This document shows positions 1-49,201 of a stretch of DNA of 64,000 nucleotides, one piece after another. The DNA comes from Elusimicrobiales bacterium (lineage in GTDB: Bacteria; Elusimicrobiota; Elusimicrobia; Elusimicrobiales; UBA9959): assembly GCA_028688015.1 (NCBI GenBank), contig JAQTZB010000005.1:18561-82560 (forward strand), read 5' to 3'. Both the position numbers and the translations under genes were made by a program. Every line of letters begins with the position of its first letter. Position 1 is the first letter of the stretch. The notes under the pieces are model-generated. The model saw only the letters and a program-made list of their open reading frames with translations. It made no database searches and had not been told where the DNA came from.

Positions 1-19
1 GAACCAGGAGAAAACTAAT

Positions 20-124
20 ATGAAATACGAGTCCCCCGTCATCATCGAGTCCGTAGACGCTACCACCGGCGACGCCAGCAACCTCTTCGACGTCTGCGTC
101 AAGGCCAGCTGCCTCTCTTGGTAA
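20..124 (+). CDS. Putative RiPP precursor peptide, copy 1 (34 aa)
   Basis: This tiny gene starts at an ATG preceded by AGGAG and ends in TAA. The 34-residue product begins MKYESPVIIESVD, which looks like a leader, and ends in the possible core VCVKASCLSW with cysteines at 26 and 31. A near-identical copy follows 51 bases later, and two radical SAM/SPASM genes and an exporter lie downstream. Short tandem precursors beside radical SAM maturases are the hallmark of radical SAM-modified RiPPs (ranthipeptide, sactipeptide or cyclophane types). The leader/core boundary and the modification are inference. The window begins only 19 bases upstream, so further copies may lie outside it. Confidence 0.75.
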   Translation: MKYESPVIIESVDATTGDASNLFDVCVKASCLSW

Positions 125-175
125 GCTGAGCGGCAAGAATCTAACACTAAACAAAAAACAGGAGAAAACACTAAT

Positions 176-280
176 ATGAAATACGAGTCCCCCGTCATCA
201 TCGAGTCCGTAGACGCTACCACCGGCGACACCAGCAACCTCTTCGACGTCTGCGTCAAGGCCAGCTGCCTCTCTTGGTAA
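176..280 (+). CDS. Putative RiPP precursor peptide, copy 2 (34 aa)
   Basis: This is the second precursor. It is identical to copy 1 except for one base (GCC to ACC), which changes Ala19 to Thr. Identity therefore holds at 104 of 105 bases, including all synonymous positions, so the duplication is recent or kept uniform by conversion. An AGGAG ribosome site precedes the ATG at about 11 bases. The C-terminal VCVKASCLSW with Cys26 and Cys31 is unchanged, as expected if it is the modified core. It is probably cotranscribed with copy 1 and lies upstream of a stable hairpin and the maturase genes. Confidence 0.75.
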   Translation: MKYESPVIIESVDATTGDTSNLFDVCVKASCLSW

Positions 281-300
281 GCCAGGCGATCCACAATATA

Positions 301-333
301 CGCGGGGGATGGCAGGAGACTGCCTCCCCCGCG
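301..333 (+). terminator. Strong hairpin between precursors and maturases
   Basis: The stem CGCGGGGGA/TCCCCCGCG continues into GGCAG/CTGCC around a GAGA loop, with one bulged T. The downstream tract is only mildly T-rich (TTATT, then CTCCTTTT), so this looks like a partial terminator or mRNA-stabilising hairpin. Such hairpins commonly let precursor transcripts exceed maturase transcripts in RiPP operons. That role is inference here. Confidence 0.6.
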
Positions 334-417
334 GATTATTAGCTCCTTTTCCGATTAATGATATAATTAGGCGATTTCAACCAGCAATGAACTTAGGCCG
401 AAAGCAGATTTAAATTC

Positions 418-423
418 TATACT
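418..423 (+). promoter_or_regulatory. Possible -10 box for maturase operon
   Basis: TATACT at 418-423 would start RNA near 430, 27 bases before the maturase ATG. A second -10-like TATAAT lies at 362-367. No good -35 is visible for either, and no Shine-Dalgarno sequence precedes the ATG at 457. The maturases may have their own promoter besides read-through from the precursors. Confidence 0.35.
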
Positions 424-456
424 CTGCGGGCTAAATACCGGTCTCCCCTTATACCT

Positions 457-1782
457 ATGAAATTAAACAACAACTATATATATCGCAAATTTGACGACAC
501 CTATTACATTATTAGCGCCAATGGCAGCGGATTTAAACTAAAAAACACTGTCGCATGCATGATATTTGAAGAGCTGCTCAAAGCTGACACCGTAGCAAAG
601 GCTAAAGAAGCGTTCCTGTCGGCTGTTCCGCAGGAAAACAGGGCCGCTGCCGGGACTGATTTCGATACGATCGCCCGCCTATGCCACGAGAAGTACGGAA
701 TATTTTTGGGCTCGAACCCGGCCATAATCGGAAAAAACGCCGAAGCGGATATCCTCAAGGAACTGTACGTTAAAGCCGGGGCACCCTCCAAGATCACCAA
801 GTGCCATATCGAACTGACGGATAATTGCAATTTTAGATGCCGGATGTGCTACATGGGTCCGGCAATACAGAAAACAACCCACCGCGCCTTGAAAACCTCG
901 GAGTTCAAAAAAATCCTGGACTTGCTGGATAAAGACGGCCTGATCGAGCTTACCTTGACCGGCGGAGAACCGCTGCTTAATCCGGAAATCCTTGAAATCC
1001 TGGGCCTGCTGCGCGGAAAGAATTTCTTTGTCGGGATCAACACTAACGGCAGCGTTCTGAACGAGAAATTGCTGGAAGCACTGCTCGAGATAAGAGTGTG
1101 CAGCATGGAAGTCTCGATCTACGGTTTCTCAGAAGACGTCTACGAACGCGTTACCGGCCGCAGGGAATTCGCCAAGGTGCTCGAGAACGTAAAAAAGTTC
1201 TTCGCCGCAGGCCTGCCGGTGCGGTTAAAATATACGCTCCAGCGCGACAACCTGCAGGACGTCCGGGCATTTAAAGCCTACTGCGAGGAAAACGGCTGGA
1301 ATTATTCTATCACACGCGGAGAATTGATGCCGGATATTACCGGCGGGCAGACCAGCGGTCAGCCGCTCTCCCCGGAAGAGACAGAAGAACTGGTCCTAGG
1401 CGGCATCCTCAGCCTCCCCGACCCGAGTGAGCACTGCGACGTCTCGGGCTGCAAGCTGGCCAAGTCCAGGCTTACGATAGACGCCAACGGCAACGCCTCC
1501 CCTTGCGAGATGGTGCGGCTTAATTTCGGCAATGTCCTGGGTGAGAACGCCGGGGACATAATCGGAGAGAACAACAAGAGGCTCCAGTTGGTGGCCGGTA
1601 TTCCCGTGGACCGGTCCGATAAATGCCTCACCTGTAAGGTAAAAACCTACTGCGGCCACAGGACCTGTCCCGCGGCCAAGTACGCGGTGCAGGGACGTAT
1701 CGGCGGACACTACGAGCCCGCCTGCAAACAGGCGGAAATGTTCCACAGGATCTGGGTGAAAAAACATGAAAACGCTAAATAA
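457..1782 (+). CDS. Radical SAM/SPASM peptide maturase 1
   Basis: The product has 441 residues. Residues 1-85 look like a PqqD-like peptide-binding (RRE) region. The radical SAM core carries the 4Fe-4S motif CNFRCRMC (C124, C128, C131) and LTGGEPLL. The C-terminal part (about 335-430) is a cysteine-rich SPASM domain holding auxiliary clusters (SPCEMV, CLTCKVKTYCGHRTC). Such enzymes install thioether or C-C crosslinks in precursor peptides. The first 100 bases are more AT-rich than the neighbours, a weak sign of transfer. The gene overlaps the next maturase by 17 bases. The substrate is probably the two 34-residue peptides upstream (inference from proximity). Confidence 0.85.
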   Translation: MKLNNNYIYRKFDDTYYIISANGSGFKLKNTVACMIFEELLKADTVAKAKEAFLSAVPQENRAAAGTDFDTIARLCHEKYGIFLGSNPAIIGKNAEADILKELYVKAGAPSKITKCHIELTDNCNFRCRMCYMGPAIQKTTHRALKTSEFKKILDLLDKDGLIELTLTGGEPLLNPEILEILGLLRGKNFFVGINTNGSVLNEKLLEALLEIRVCSMEVSIYGFSEDVYERVTGRREFAKVLENVKKFFAAGLPVRLKYTLQRDNLQDVRAFKAYCEENGWNYSITRGELMPDITGGQTSGQPLSPEETEELVLGGILSLPDPSEHCDVSGCKLAKSRLTIDANGNASPCEMVRLNFGNVLGENAGDIIGENNKRLQLVAGIPVDRSDKCLTCKVKTYCGHRTCPAAKYAVQGRIGGHYEPACKQAEMFHRIWVKKHENAK

Positions 1783-3019
1783 GAAAGAACTCATAGTCCG
1801 CGAGTACGAATACAAAGGCAAGAAAGGGCGTTACCTGACCAGCCGGCAGACCGGGGCAGGGTGTCTGCTTGAAGGCAGCGCCGTTGAATTTTTCGATATC
1901 GCGCACGGCAGTGAGGCGCAGGTGGAAGCCCGCCTGGCAGAAATGGCCGCGATGTTCGGCGTAGATACGGCCAGGATAGCCAAGGACTACGAAACTTTCG
2001 TGGCGGGGCTGGAAAAAACGCTGGGCAAGGACAAGAAATCCGACGCGAAGCTGCTCCCCGCACTCGCGGAAAGAGGCTTAACCGCCCTGGTAATGCTGGA
2101 GCTGCTGCACCCCTGCAACCTCAAGTGCGTGCACTGCTACGTGGGGAACCGGGGCGGCGAGGAGGATTACCGGAGCCTGGTGGTCAAGAAACTCGACGTG
2201 CTCAAGCGCAAGCTGATGGAGATGGGCTGCCCCGAAATCACGGTCACCGGCGGCGAGATCCGCATGGTCCCCGGCATAACCGGGATACTCAAAGAGCTTT
2301 CCAGCGACTTCATCGTCGTCGCCCTCACGAACGGCACGATGTGGACGGAAGAGGACTGCAAAGAACTGGCCGCGGCCGGAGTCAGGGAGATCCGCGCCAC
2401 GCTCTTCTCGCACGACCCGAAGGTGCACGACGCTATCACCTGCGATCCCGGCAGCTGGCAGAAGACCTTCGACTTCGCCATGACGATGAAGCGCCTCGGC
2501 GCGCCGATAGGGATAAACACGCCGGCACTGGCCGCTAACATCAAGGACATCCCGGCCTTGGTGGAAAAGATGAAGCAGGCCGGCCTGCGGTGCGTTGTGG
2601 ACGCGAAATGCTTCCAGGGACTGGGCGCAAAGAATTGCCGCGCCGGACTCCCCGAGCTGACGGAACTGTACCGCTCCGGCCTCGTTCCCAAGCTGAATAA
2701 AACCGTGTGCGGCGGCATAATACAGAAGGTGCGGATAGGCCCCGACGGGACCATCTTCCCCTGTGAGTATCTCTCCGACAAGATAGGGAATATTTTCGAA
2801 GACCGCACCATGGCGGACATCCGGGCTTCCGAGCCGGTAAAAAAAATGCTGGGCGTGATGGCCCAGCCGCCTTCGTGCGAAGAGTGCGCCGGCTGCTCGG
2901 CGAAAGACAAATGCTTCAACTGCATCGCCTTTAATTACGGCGAAACCGGCGACCATTTAAAGCCGAGCAGGCATATTTGCGACCTTAACAGGATCTGCCG
3001 CCAACTCGAGAGCGCATGA
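1766..3019 (+). CDS. Radical SAM/SPASM peptide maturase 2
   Basis: The product has 417 residues and the same architecture as maturase 1 but a divergent sequence. It has an N-terminal region of about 90 residues that may be PqqD-like, then the cluster motif CNLKCVHC (C117, C121, C124), then VTGGEIRM. A C-terminal SPASM region carries FPCEYL and the cysteine run CEECAGCSAKDKCFNC. It starts inside the end of maturase 1 and its own end overlaps the transporter by four bases (ATGA), so translation is probably coupled. Two maturases for one short core with two cysteines suggests two distinct modifications, or a heteromeric enzyme. Confidence 0.83.
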   Translation: MKTLNKKELIVREYEYKGKKGRYLTSRQTGAGCLLEGSAVEFFDIAHGSEAQVEARLAEMAAMFGVDTARIAKDYETFVAGLEKTLGKDKKSDAKLLPALAERGLTALVMLELLHPCNLKCVHCYVGNRGGEEDYRSLVVKKLDVLKRKLMEMGCPEITVTGGEIRMVPGITGILKELSSDFIVVALTNGTMWTEEDCKELAAAGVREIRATLFSHDPKVHDAITCDPGSWQKTFDFAMTMKRLGAPIGINTPALAANIKDIPALVEKMKQAGLRCVVDAKCFQGLGAKNCRAGLPELTELYRSGLVPKLNKTVCGGIIQKVRIGPDGTIFPCEYLSDKIGNIFEDRTMADIRASEPVKKMLGVMAQPPSCEECAGCSAKDKCFNCIAFNYGETGDHLKPSRHICDLNRICRQLESA

Positions 3020-4314
3020 AGCGCCTGGGGCGGGATTATTGGCTGTTCATGTCCGGGCAGTTCGTGTCGAGCCTGGGGGACACCTGCGCCAACATAGCCC
3101 TGGCCTGGTGGGTGTACGGCAAAACTGGCTCCGGCACGGCCATGGCGTCCATCATGGCGCCTTCCATGATAGTCCGCCTGATCTGCCTGCCGCTGTTCGG
3201 CCCGATAGGCGACCGCTACTCGCGAAAAAAGCTGCTGGCCCTGGGCGACTTTCTCTGCGCCCTGACCTCCTTCCTGCTGGCGGCGATGGCGTTTAAAGAT
3301 TTCTTCAATATCCCCCTGATACTGACCCTCTCCTGTATTTCTTCCGCCGGTTCGGCGCTGTTCAACGTGGCCTATGGCGGGCTGCTGAGCAGCATTGTCG
3401 CCCCCGAAGATTACCGCGACGCGTTCAGGCAGAACAAGATCCTGAATTCGGCCAATTCCATCATAGGCGGCCTGGCTGGCGGGGCCGTAGTGAGCTTTCT
3501 CGGCTTTACCTCGGCTTTCGCCTTCGACGGGTTCTCCTTCCTCATCGGAGGGGCGGCGGCCCTCGCTATCTCGCACCACACCGTGCCCGTGAGGGCGGCG
3601 CGGGCGGAGGCCGCCTCGGTTTCGAGCCGGCTGGCCCAGTGGAAGTCGGACATCGCCGGGGGCTTTATTTTTCTGAAGCGCCTGAAGATCGTGCTGAACA
3701 TAGCGCTGTTGCTCATGTGCCTGAACCTGATACTCTCCCCGCTTTCCATCATCCTGCCCATCATGGTCAAGCAGATCCAGAAAATGCCGGCCTGGTATTT
3801 AGGGGCCCTTCAAAGCAGCATCAGCGTCGGGGTGCTGCTCATCTCTATTTCCCTCGGCTTCTTCACGCGGAAACTGGCCAATTCCCGGATAGTCTTCCTG
3901 GGCTTCGCCCTGCTCGGCACGGGGCTGGCCGCGCTGAGCTTCTCCAGCGGGAAGGTGCTCCCGCTGATAGTGTTCCCGCTGTTGGGGGCCGGCATGACAG
4001 CCGCTATGATCTTATTGTCCACGCAGGTAATGACCGCCGTGCCCGACGCGCTCCGCGCCAGGTTTTCCGCGGCGTCTTCTTTCCTGATAGATATCTCCAA
4101 GCCCGCCGGCATCGCGGCCAGCGGCCTGCTGATAGACCTCTTCGGGGTGAGCCGCTCCCTCGGCCTGGTCGGTTTCGGAGTGGCCCTGCTTTCCCCGGCG
4201 ATCTTCCTGATCCCTAATTTTTCCGCCTTCATCGACAGCAAGGCCGAGACGGTCTGCAAACTGGTCAGGGAATGGTACCCCGACGCCTTCAGTGAAGAGT
4301 CCGCGGCCGCATAA
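3016..4314 (+). CDS. MFS exporter, MefA/EntS-like
   Basis: This 432-residue polytopic membrane protein has about twelve hydrophobic segments. Its start (DYWLFMSGQFVSSLGD) and the loop GDRYSRKK between segments 2 and 3 are typical of the MFS_3 drug and siderophore exporter family. The ATG overlaps the stop of maturase 2. By position it should export the modified peptide or confer self-resistance. An MFS exporter without a peptidase-containing ABC transporter is uncommon for a RiPP locus, so leader removal must happen elsewhere or not at all. Confidence 0.8.
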   Translation: MKRLGRDYWLFMSGQFVSSLGDTCANIALAWWVYGKTGSGTAMASIMAPSMIVRLICLPLFGPIGDRYSRKKLLALGDFLCALTSFLLAAMAFKDFFNIPLILTLSCISSAGSALFNVAYGGLLSSIVAPEDYRDAFRQNKILNSANSIIGGLAGGAVVSFLGFTSAFAFDGFSFLIGGAAALAISHHTVPVRAARAEAASVSSRLAQWKSDIAGGFIFLKRLKIVLNIALLLMCLNLILSPLSIILPIMVKQIQKMPAWYLGALQSSISVGVLLISISLGFFTRKLANSRIVFLGFALLGTGLAALSFSSGKVLPLIVFPLLGAGMTAAMILLSTQVMTAVPDALRARFSAASSFLIDISKPAGIAASGLLIDLFGVSRSLGLVGFGVALLSPAIFLIPNFSAFIDSKAETVCKLVREWYPDAFSEESAAA

Positions 4315-13874: not shown

Positions 13875-13970
13875 TCAGTACCAGCCCTTTTCCTCTATCC
13901 ACGCGGCCAGCGCGGCCGACAGGAAGGCGGCTATAATGAACGAATAGCCCATGCTGTAGATCCACTTCAT
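13875..13970 (-). CDS. 31-residue membrane peptide downstream of rpoN
   Basis: The ATG overlaps the rpoN stop codon (ATGA), and the frame runs 31 codons to TGA just before the terminator. The product starts MKWIYSMGYS, continues with a hydrophobic helix (IIAAFLSAALAAW) and ends with charged EEKGWY. Stop overlap, hydrophobic character and tight fit to the terminator support a real small protein. The function is unknown. It resembles small single-pass regulatory peptides in form only. Confidence 0.55.
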   Translation of the reverse strand: MKWIYSMGYSFIIAAFLSAALAAWIEEKGWY

Positions 13971-15034
13971 TCGGCCTCGCCGGCCCGCGCACCCGAGGCG
14001 GCCAGCCGCAGGTCCTTGCGGTACTGCGCCACCGAGCGGCGCGACAGGGCCACGCCGTGGCGCCCCTTCAGCTCCCCCCGCAACCCCTCGTCGCTGAGGT
14101 GCGGTTTTTCGGTAGCCAGGGCGTAGAGGCGCTCCAGGTTGACCTGCTTGGAGGTGGGCAGCAGCACGGTCATCGGCGCCTGCATGCCCCACGGCATTTC
14201 CACGGACTTGTTGGACACCAGGCGGTTGATCACGCTCGGGTCCACCTCCAGGTTCTTGGCCAGCGTCTTCTGCGACAGCGGCCGGCGGCGGCCCGGCTCG
14301 CCGGTGGCGAGGTAGTCGGCCTGCACGCTTATTAAAATTTCCAGCGCGCGGTACAGGGTGGTCTTGCGCTTGTCGGCGAACTCCACCTTGCGCAGCAGCT
14401 TTTCCACGCGGGACCGCTCGGCGAGGTCCAGGCCGGGCAGCAGCTGCGCCAGCTTGTCGGGATCCACCTTGTAGCGGCCTTTCCAGATCTCGCGGTTGAA
14501 GAAGGCCAGTTCCGGCTCGCCGTCCTTCAGGGTTATCCCGGCGACCGCGCTGTACACCGCGGCGGCGGGCGCCTCGGCCTGGCCCTCGAACTCCGCCTGG
14601 ATGAAAGCCCGGTTGACGAAGTCGCGCAGGCGCTCCGCGTCCTTTACGGAGATGTCGCATTCCTCGGCGCGCTCCACGTCGCTCATGACCGCGTCCTTCA
14701 GAAAGCAGGCCTCGAACTTTTCCTGGCCTACGCCCTGGATCAGCACCACCAGGTCGCCGGAGCCGTCTGCCAGCTCGGGCAGGCCGCCGCCGGAAAGCTT
14801 GAGCCCGTAGCCGGCGTATTTGCGCGCGGCGTAGCGCGCGGAGGGAAATTCGCTGAGCGTCAGCGCGCCGGAGGACTTCAGCAGTTCGAAGACCTTCCCG
14901 CCCTCCAGCTCTTTCAGGGTTTTAGCGAACTCTTCTTCGCTCATCGCAGCCATCTGCGCCATCTTCAGCGCGCCCAGCACGGACGCGGAAGTCCTGGCGC
15001 CTGCCCCTGCGTTAAGCCTGAAACCGTGTTTCAT
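13967..15034 (-). CDS. rpoN: RNA polymerase sigma-54 factor, short form
   Basis: The 355-residue product is shorter than the usual 430-500. The core-binding and HTH regions are clear (TLAKNLEVDPSVINRLVSNK), and the C-terminal RpoN box reads RRSVAQYRKDL (about 332-342). Region I is abbreviated and not Gln-rich, and the acidic region II is missing. AAGGA lies before the ATG. The gene is divergent from a sigma-54-type activator, and a site resembling a sigma-54 promoter lies about 45-60 bases upstream of its start. Confidence 0.9.
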   Translation of the reverse strand: MKHGFRLNAGAGARTSASVLGALKMAQMAAMSEEEFAKTLKELEGGKVFELLKSSGALTLSEFPSARYAARKYAGYGLKLSGGGLPELADGSGDLVVLIQGVGQEKFEACFLKDAVMSDVERAEECDISVKDAERLRDFVNRAFIQAEFEGQAEAPAAAVYSAVAGITLKDGEPELAFFNREIWKGRYKVDPDKLAQLLPGLDLAERSRVEKLLRKVEFADKRKTTLYRALEILISVQADYLATGEPGRRRPLSQKTLAKNLEVDPSVINRLVSNKSVEMPWGMQAPMTVLLPTSKQVNLERLYALATEKPHLSDEGLRGELKGRHGVALSRRSVAQYRKDLRLAASGARAGEAE

Positions 15035-15075
15035 AATGCGGTCCTTTTAAAAATCCAGCCTCTTACCTCATAATA

Positions 15076-15092
15076 GAACAATTTTTATGCCA
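15076..15092 (-). promoter_or_regulatory. Sigma-54-like site upstream of rpoN
   Basis: On the minus strand TGGCATAAAAATTGTTC matches TGGCAN-N5-TTGC except that the -12 GC is GT. Transcription would start near 15067, leaving a 30-odd base leader with AAGGA. This suggests autoregulation. A TATTAT at 15069-15074 offers an alternative sigma-70 -10 without a -35. Confidence 0.45.
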
Positions 15093-15152
15093 GCCGCAAG
15101 CCAAGGCCCGCCATTGGCCCCCCCCCTAGCGCGAAGGCGGCTCCAAGTTCTG

Positions 15153-15158
15153 TATAAT
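15153..15158 (+). promoter_or_regulatory. TATAAT -10 box for sigma-54 activator
   Basis: A perfect TATAAT would start RNA near 15165, giving a leader of about 49 bases that contains the GGAG ribosome site before 15214. The -35 is poor. Confidence 0.45.
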
Positions 15159-15213
15159 AAGAGCCGGGGTTAAATCTTTTCATTTGAAAATACCGGTTCT
15201 CAGCGGAGAATTT

Positions 15214-16554
15214 ATGGAAAAACTCAATATCTTCGTGCTGGAAGACGACAAGCTGGCCCAGAAGGTCATGTCAGCCCACCTGGCGGCCCACTGCGTGGAC
15301 CTGGCGGCCGACCTGAAGACCGCGCTGAAAAAGCTGGAAACAGGGAAGTACGACATAGGCTTCTTCGACCTGCTGCTCGGCCCCGGCGACGACTATTCCG
15401 GGCTGAAGGCCATAGAGGCCGCGGCGGCGCGGGGCGTGCACTGCGTGGTGGTCTCCAGCTCCGACTCCGACGAAACCATAGACCGCGCCTACGCGCTGGG
15501 GGCCTCCGACTTCTACGCCAAGGGCAACGAAGAGGCCAACGTAGGCGAAATCCTGCGCAAGTTCGTGCAGAACCGCAAGGCGGCCGCCGCCACCGACATC
15601 TTCACCTCCGCTTTCATCACCTGCGACCCGGAGACCCGGGCGATGGCGGCCGAAGCGCTGAAATACGCGCCGACCGAACTGCCCATCCTGGTGCTCGGCC
15701 CCTCGGGCACCGGCAAGACCTCGCTCGCCAAGATCCTGCACGAGCATTCCGGCCGCGACGGCGCCTTCGTCTCCATCAACTGCTCGGCCTACACCGAGGA
15801 CCTGCTGGAGGCCGAGCTGTTCGGCTACCGCAAGGGCGCCTTCACCGGCGCGGCCGAGACCCGCAGGGGCCGCCTGCTCGAGGCGCACCGCGGCACGCTG
15901 TTCCTCGATGAGATAGGCACGATGAGCCTGAACATGCAGATGAAGCTGCTGAAGGCCATCGAGGAGCGCTCGTTCTACCCGCTGGGCTCGGAGCGGCCGG
16001 AGCGCTCGGAGTTCCGCATCATCAGCGCCACGCTGGAGGACCCGCAGGCCCTGATAGCCAGCGGCAGGATGCGCTTCGACCTGTTCCAGCGCGTGCACGG
16101 CTACACGATCAACCTGAAGCCGCTGTCTCGCCGGCCCTGCGACATCGCCCCGCTGCTGCTGCACTTCACCAAAGGCCGGCGGCGCCTCTCGTTCGCGCCC
16201 GAGGCGAGGGCATACATGGAAAGCTACGCCTGGCCCGGCAACGTGCGCGAGCTCAAGAAGTTCACTGACCTGGTTTCCGGCGGCGCGGCCGGCCGCGTGG
16301 ACCTGGAGACGGTCAAGAAGCACCTGAAGGGCACCCAGGGCCCCCGCCCCGCCCCCCAGGACGGAGAGATCTACGACTACGCCCTCGCCCACGGCTTGGA
16401 GGCGGCGCTGGAAAAGATTTCGGGGGAAATAATAGCGCGCAGCCTGCGCGAGAACGGCGGCAAAAAGACCAGGACGATGGCCGACCTGAAGATCTCCACC
16501 CGCCTGCTATACGCTACGCTGAAGAAACTGGGCCTTGAAACGGAGGGCAAATGA
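15214..16554 (+). CDS. Sigma-54-dependent response regulator (NtrC family)
   Basis: This 446-residue activator starts at the ATG at 15214, preceded by GGAG. The upstream TTG at 15184 has no ribosome site. The receiver domain (1-118) has the acidic pocket EDD and phospho-acceptor D52. The AAA+ domain has Walker A GPSGTGKT (162-169), the sigma-54 contact loop GAFTGA (208-213) and Walker B LFLDEIG. The C-terminal Fis-type HTH is recognisable but divergent. Its neighbour rpoN is divergent, and the next gene overlaps its stop. It has no adjacent full histidine kinase. Confidence 0.93.
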
Positions 16555-48912: not shown

Positions 48913-48928
48913 TGGCATATAAATTGCT
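48913..48928 (+). promoter_or_regulatory. Sigma-54 promoter candidate
   Basis: TGGCATATAAATTGCT has the invariant GG and GC with ten bases between. RNA would start near 48939, and TGGAGGAAT then precedes the ATG at 48968. Confidence 0.6.
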
Positions 48929-48967: not shown

Positions 48968-49201
48968 ATGGATATTGGATCTGCTGGTATGACAGGAATA
49001 TCGATGCTGGCCAACATAAGCTACGCCGGCATGCTGGCTCAGAACAACCCGGACAGGGTCTGGCGCATCATTTCTTTCATCTTCGGCCTGCCAGGCACCG
49101 TGGTTAGCGCCTTAGCCGTAAAGGAAGGTTCCATGCGCGCCTACGGCATAGACCTGCGCCCCGGCGCCGCACCCATCATAGATAACAAGCCGCAGCCGTA
49201 A
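48968..49201 (+). CDS. Small membrane protein, 77 aa
   Basis: The product has a Gly/Ala/Met-rich N-terminal segment, then a hydrophobic helix around 35-52 (IISFIFGLPGTVVSALAV), then a polar tail ending NKPQP. The ribosome site GGAGGA is strong. The family is unrecognised. It is the only gene downstream of a well-formed sigma-54-type promoter in this window. Confidence 0.6.
   Translation: MDIGSAGMTGISMLANISYAGMLAQNNPDRVWRIISFIFGLPGTVVSALAVKEGSMRAYGIDLRPGAAPIIDNKPQP

Follow-up and report, generated by a model that had tools for sequence, protein, structure and literature searches.

A predicted radical SAM peptide locus with a precursor array and sigma-54 promoters in an Elusimicrobiales bacterium

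We analyzed a 64,000-nucleotide stretch of the genome of an Elusimicrobiales bacterium (contig JAQTZB010000005.1, positions 18,561 to 82,560 of the forward strand; G000:C50:18561-82560, where G000 is the source genome), hereafter the window, which opens on a putative locus for a ribosomally synthesized and post-translationally modified peptide (RiPP). The locus contains short precursor genes, a hairpin, two genes for radical S-adenosylmethionine (SAM) enzymes, rSAM1 and rSAM2, and a gene for a major facilitator superfamily (MFS) protein (Table 1). An earlier note on this DNA had described two 105-bp peptide genes that differ by one base, a GC-rich hairpin behind them, and two overlapping radical SAM genes of the SPASM type followed by an overlapping MFS gene. 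We recovered each of these features: coordinates and Pfam matches agree, and Radical_SAM and SPASM exceed the Pfam gathering cut-off in both enzymes. The two precursor genes encode MKYESPVIIESVDATTGD[A/T]SNLFDVCVKASCLSW. The description of the precursors as twins holds for the window and fails as a total: the window start directly abuts a 100-N scaffold gap, and six further precursor genes lie to the left of that gap on the same contig. The array contains at least eight copies, and the gap hides the true number. Also missed by the earlier note, besides this upstream array, were the apparent sigma-54 control and the sister RiPP loci described below.

Each unit of the array consists of a sigma-54 promoter, a conserved start-site element, one to three precursor genes and a hairpin. 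In copy 7, the leader contains Y3-x2-P6-x-I8 and the core contains C26-x4-C31 and a C-terminal Trp. We found three core types in the array: VCVKASCLSW, which occurs six times, ICAKNTCIAF and YYCAKNTCLSY, the last two carried by the upstream precursors MKYESPVIIESVEATGGDTQGLIGICAKNTCIAF and MKYESPVIIVTAQPDATSDLHFFDTYYCAKNTCLSY. All share C-x4-C, and the last residue is always aromatic (W, F or Y). A 33-bp pattern from the precursor gene start, allowing up to 3 mismatches, gave 7 matches in 15 kb and none in 200 shuffles. The precursor had no hits among profiled families (Pfam, NCBIfam). Over part of the array, a 385-bp unit is repeated in tandem (2.7 copies at 98%). Because the copies vary by both synonymous and non-synonymous changes, and because the spacers of the two dicistronic units have diverged, we conclude that they are real duplications.

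The hairpin behind the last precursor differs from its upstream counterparts. In a comparison of the sequences and folds of five hairpins, the complete upstream units end in a hairpin followed by TTCTTTTT or TTTTTT, whereas the last hairpin is followed by ATTATTAGC and is not called as a terminator on the forward strand. No T-tract terminator lies between the precursors and rSAM1, and we detected no sigma-70-like promoter before rSAM1; therefore, the simplest reading is that transcription continues into the maturase genes. The last hairpin is probably a leaky terminator or an mRNA end that feeds these genes.

The N termini of both enzymes, which the earlier note had proposed as possible peptide-binding regions, resemble RiPP recognition elements (RREs). 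Against a profile of 32 PqqD domains, hhalign gave 90.6% for the N-terminus of rSAM2 and 43% for that of rSAM1, compared with at most 4.9% for 12 control segments taken from other parts of the same two enzymes. In the AlphaFold2 (AF2) model of rSAM1, the N-terminal domain shows the strand-strand-strand-helix-helix-helix order of an RRE, with predicted local distance difference test (pLDDT) values of up to about 82; a Foldseek search with this model placed CteB and SuiB at the top, and the lone RRE TbiB1 aligned at a template modeling (TM) score of 0.70. The AF2 model of rSAM2 was left out of the evidence. These results bear out the proposal, suggesting an N-terminal RRE in both enzymes by profile comparison and in rSAM1 also by fold, with moderate model confidence.

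The enzymes reached no NCBIfam equivalog: the best matches, to the SynChlorMet models ScmE (with rSAM1) and ScmF, scored 95.8 and 88.2 bits against a cut-off of 400, and the scores against the curated maturase models SkfB, StsB, PapB and AlbA were all far below cut-off. SkfB was the closest solved structure by sequence match. The statement in the earlier note that the locus fits no named class was thus upheld for the curated classes; the combination itself is not without parallel, as ruminococcin C pairs two maturases with several precursors (PMC8188230). The locus enzymes probably cross-link their peptide, and the MFS protein is probably the exporter of the modified product. MFS genes also occur in the sister loci. 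Elsewhere in the same genome, more than 20 radical SAM genes lie within about 60 kb (G000:C41:56762-119074).

The precursors share a leader motif that may be what these RREs recognize. YESPVI or YEAPVI occurs in every precursor of three genomes from two genera, and Y-x2-P-x-I is invariant while neighboring residues vary. This pattern matches [Y/W]xxPx[L/V/I/A/F/Y], a motif that lasso RREs bind and that precursors of pyrroloquinoline quinone (PQQ) also contain (PMC13381572). By analogy, we infer that the RREs of the locus bind YESPVI as lasso/PQQ-type RREs do.

Homologues of the precursor, which the earlier note had expected beside related maturases, were found there in two of the other genomes of the phylum. 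In G031 (CALMZU010000228.1), a different species, the order is a divergent NtrC-type regulator, a sigma-54 box, the precursor MKYEAPVIIETTESAEDNKSALDLNICGGGCIK, a PqqD-B12-binding-radical SAM gene, rSAM1, rSAM2 and, in the same position as in the window, the MFS gene; the two enzymes are 54% and 53% identical to rSAM1 and rSAM2, respectively. In G154, which belongs to another genus and was found with the precursor profile, the precursor METKETVEMSYESPVITESVAAESDNKAVINVCDANCFNPL is followed by a PqqD-B12-radical SAM gene that is cut off by the contig end and whose available part shares 48% identity with the G031 gene; G000 has no such gene. Fixed across the three genomes are leader residues Y, E, P, V and I and both core cysteines, whose spacing is x4 in G000 and x3 in the relatives; the C-terminal aromatic residue is not fixed, since the relatives' cores are NICGGGCIK (G031) and VCDANCFNPL (G154). 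Viral contigs scanned with rSAM1 and rSAM2 yielded no relative, and a plasmid search gave no match at 1e-30. A wider contig scan for rSAM1, which used two N-terminal patterns only and thus does not show absence outside the phylum, returned only G031. Hits of the precursor profile with E > 1e-3 were dismissed as chance, as was one of 6.3e-4 that contains two internal stops; a B12-radical SAM-like match in G015 (33%) is without the PqqD part. The arrangement follows the general pattern of RiPP loci, in which short precursors with a conserved leader and a variable core lie beside modifying enzymes. We regard it as a genuine radical-SAM RiPP locus of a kind that had not been named before.

The precursor units appear to be under sigma-54 control, through a promoter type that is rare. 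Four perfect TGGCAY-N5-TTGCT sites stand before precursor units in the 15-kb locus (L001), compared with 0.03 expected, and these boxes share further bases past -12 (TTGCTCYGTA-N3-GGCGTA). Searched without the -24 box and with one mismatch allowed, this element was found in 26 of 341 genomes of the phylum (48 sites among the matches listed, versus 2 control hits), mostly within one family. The -24 box TGGCAY, although absent from the query, was present at the exact offset in 29 of the 34 distinct sites examined, and only two of the 34 lack anything like it, both of them outside the family. The extended box occurs in G000 also at C50:177516 and C50:177900. Across the genomes, the element precedes two other kinds of radical-SAM peptide locus, class III lanthipeptides (2 genomes) and secreted proteins; in G015 and G023, it precedes the divergent sigma-54 gene itself. 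Exported peptides as targets fit the description of sigma-54 as a controller of the bacterial exterior (PMC3162934). Full-text searches of an open-licence library returned no description of this locus or of any RiPP regulon under sigma-54. As a separate observation, a perfect -24/-12 sigma-54 site, TGGCATATAAATTGCT, lies at window position 48913 before a 77-amino-acid open reading frame (ORF; 48968-49201).

Two sigma-54 genes are present in G000: one, type B, lies in the window divergent from an NtrC-type activator gene, and its paralogue, type A, lies on C54. The two types fall into separate groups in a tree, and every genus member examined has both; within the genus, conservation of the type B/activator pair is 77-86%. 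In other genomes, type B is found next to peptide loci. G154 carries on C45 (L100, L046) two near-identical type B genes, which stand immediately 5' of two different RiPP operons, as though gene and cluster had been duplicated as one; in G142, a peptide/radical SAM operon follows directly on a type B gene; and the type B/activator pair of G018 and of G019 adjoins a lanthipeptide cluster, with the type B gene within about 8 kb of the LanKC cluster. This genetic linkage suggests that type B reads these promoters. That type B occurs only alongside RiPPs was considered and rejected, as G001, G012 and G025 contain type B without a recognized RiPP beside it.

Other peptide loci were found behind the same element. 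The second array in G000 encodes MENMNNSKMEAAQSEAEILALIDSDTLEMPSWDDGCYHR in at least two copies, has its own scaffold gap, and comprises tandem 39-amino-acid precursors that end in LEMPSWDDGCYHR; this LEMPSWD class also occurs behind the element in G150, G026 and G154. On the same contig, the box-preceded C11 peptidase is a candidate leader peptidase or co-secreted enzyme, and a further C-x4-C peptide with an MFS gene is flanked by C11 clostripain-type peptidases, with no radical SAM gene nearby. On G004:C7 (L118, L145), a box precedes a radical SAM/SPASM gene and two peptides rich in Cys (MSKPxITVNKEQDCSVC...); the nearest curated model of this enzyme is AlbA, at 239 bits against a cut-off of 850. 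On G142:C59 (L147), type B is accompanied by a small peptide, two boxes, a radical SAM gene, ATP-binding cassette (ABC) ATPase and permease-like genes, and a radical SAM-like ORF. Finally, G018:C36 (L143) and G019:C7 (L144) carry tandem class III lanthipeptide precursors (28.0-30.6 bits; cut-off 22), LanKC (732 and 738 bits; cut-off 575) and an ABC transporter behind a box.

Table 1. Features of the locus and of other loci in the source genome. Plain coordinates are window positions; window position = L001 position - 9561.
Feature	Position	Strand	Description
Six upstream precursor genes	L001 7717, 7873, 8036, 8510, 8895, 9280		separated from the window by 100 Ns
Precursor gene, copy 7 of at least 8	20..124	+	MKYESPVIIESVDATTGDASNLFDVCVKASCLSW; AGGAG ribosome-binding site 5' of ATG
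Precursor gene, copy 8	176..280	+	A19T variant of copy 7
GC-rich hairpin after last precursor	301..333	+	stem as in upstream units; T-tract absent
rSAM1	457..1782	+	predicted RRE (about 1-80), C124-x3-C128-x2-C131 radical SAM core, C-terminal SPASM
rSAM2	1766..3019	+	RRE-like N-terminus (about 9-86), C117-x3-C121-x2-C124 radical SAM core, C-terminal SPASM
MFS transporter	3016..4314	+	MFS_1 (Pfam)
Sigma-54-like factor, type B	13967..15034	-	sigma-54 DNA-binding domain; C-terminus SRRSVAQYRK
NtrC-type sigma-54 activator	15184..16554	+	receiver and AAA+ with GAFTGA; divergent from type B gene
Second RiPP-like locus	G000:C50:177516-183755 (L082 5517-11755)		array, radical SAM, ABC-F, second radical SAM, MFS
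Secreted C11 (clostripain family) peptidase	C50:186661 (L082 14662-16149)		preceded by extended sigma-54 box
40-amino-acid peptide ...SPAACITYSCSITSIPR (C-x4-C) beside MFS gene	C50:146357 (L084)	-	box with two mismatches

We propose that the locus is a RiPP locus with sigma-54-switched precursor units, two RRE-radical SAM-SPASM maturases and MFS export. An NtrC-type activator and sigma-54, most likely the type B pair (13967-16554), would turn on the precursor units. Complete upstream units would stop at their T-tract hairpins while the last hairpin lets some transcription pass, so that precursor is made in large excess over enzyme. Once the N-terminal RREs have bound the leader, the two SAM-radical centers would each introduce a different link or modification into the C-x4-C core, with cysteine thioethers the likeliest kind, and the MFS protein would export the product. 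The leader protease, which is not encoded at the locus, may be one of the co-regulated secreted C11 peptidases. With several cores, one leader and one enzyme pair, the outcome would be a small mixture of related products.

Taken as a whole, we regard this account as likely, with several points weighing against it. Both enzymes occur in just one further genome (G031) of the 341, such that conserved function rests on two sequences, and the AF2 models of both enzymes, built from two-sequence alignments, are poor (mean pLDDT 47 and 41). On the regulatory side, the scaffold gap hides the promoter of the two in-window precursors; type A sigma-54 could just as well act on these boxes; and the regulon is not RiPP-only, as the element also fronts non-RiPP secreted proteins, some of them without known function.

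For the chemistry, the reading that survives best is that the enzymes form Cys-to-carbon thioethers, making the product a small one- or two-ring sactipeptide or ranthipeptide, to which we give an even chance. The two cysteines are the only invariant core residues in the three genomes, the nearest folds to rSAM1 include the thioether-forming CteB, and SkfB is nearest by sequence; moreover, ruminococcin C provides a precedent in its two RRE-SPASM sactisynthases and five precursors (PMC8188230). However, there are only two cysteines for two enzymes, and the reaction cannot be read from similarity in fold or sequence: SuiB, of similar fold, makes C-C links. It is less probable, though worth serious consideration, that the enzymes instead modify the aromatic residue at the C-terminus or some other C-H (by a cyclophane, a C-C link or epimerization) and that the Cys pair forms a disulphide after export. 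The constant aromatic end of the G000 cores is as this would predict, as is the sister locus with its conserved LEMPSWD...C core, whose enzyme counts cyclophane-forming maturases among its distant relatives; the cores of G031 and G154, however, do without such a residue. We consider it improbable that the peptide gives rise to a PQQ-like small molecule, serving as redox cofactor or metal binder, and is not a secreted effector. The leader motif shared with PQQ precursors (PMC13381572), the PqqD-like RREs, the small number of genes and the lack of a recognized immunity gene would all suit a cofactor, but multiple precursors with different cores and a dedicated transporter would be unusual, and a lanthipeptide is among the sister loci under the same promoter. 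Finally, it is very improbable that the short ORFs represent repeats, or assembly duplicates that are not translated, next to radical SAM genes with which they have no connection, as a tandem array beside a scaffold gap with two copies identical in the ORF might suggest; this reading was rejected on copy differences, core diversity and the repeat analysis: the eight genes stand in different arrangements, each copy has a ribosome-binding site, synonymous changes and three diversified cores are present, and homologues lie beside maturases in two other genomes.

Beyond this locus, it is conceivable, with the case balanced between yes and no, that in one family a second sigma-54 and its divergent NtrC-type activator form a general switch for peptide warfare or signaling, in which TGGCAY-N5-TTGCTCYGTA-N3-GGYRTA drives unrelated RiPPs (the C-x4-C two-maturase type, the LEMPSWD...C radical-SAM type with ABC-F, the Cys-rich type and class III lanthipeptides) together with secreted proteins, and arrays diversify behind their own promoter copies. 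New are the precursor family and its association with an MFS gene, a PqqD-B12-radical SAM gene as an optional partner in the relatives and, above all, a promoter element common to unrelated RiPP classes. The usual route to RiPP clusters goes through one enzyme after another; in this case, a blind search with the promoter element alone reached radical-SAM, lanthipeptide and other peptide loci. Because it reached several peptide classes in one family, the element can serve to mine for RiPPs irrespective of class in this phylum, few members of which have been cultured. Whether a second sigma-54 serves as a dedicated switch for secreted modified peptides becomes a directly testable question, and the locus offers for study a pair of maturases, one leader that carries three natural cores, and a leader code of lasso/PQQ type with RREs predicted to be fused to radical SAM enzymes.

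Among known systems, ruminococcin C (RumC) likewise has several tandem precursors and two radical SAM-SPASM enzymes with an N-terminal RRE; its leader has 19 residues, and its peptide contains four thioethers in two hairpin domains (PMC8188230). In contrast, the present core has about 10 residues and two cysteines, with probable MFS export and apparent sigma-54 control, and no sequence relation reaches a curated cut-off. SynChlorMet, whose ScmE is the best NCBIfam neighbor of rSAM1, is, going by its NCBIfam name, a cassette of at least two radical SAM/SPASM proteins; rSAM1 scores far below its cut-off, and the other cassette parts were not sought. CteB of the SCIFF ranthipeptides, SkfB and SuiB, the best solved matches by fold or sequence, share the RRE-radical SAM-SPASM architecture, but the present enzymes reach no curated subfamily and the precursor is unrelated to profiled families. 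Recognition by lasso/PQQ systems is resembled in the Y-x2-P-x-I of all precursors and in the likeness of the rSAM1 N-terminus to TbiB1; here, however, the predicted RREs are fused to radical SAM enzymes, and no lasso cyclase or protease was recognized in the operon. Lastly, the -24/-12 promoters, the NtrC-type activator and the exported or secreted targets are those of sigma-54 regulons (PMC3162934); this putative regulon differs in combining a second sigma-54 paralogue with a conserved element past -12 that marks RiPP precursors of several classes.

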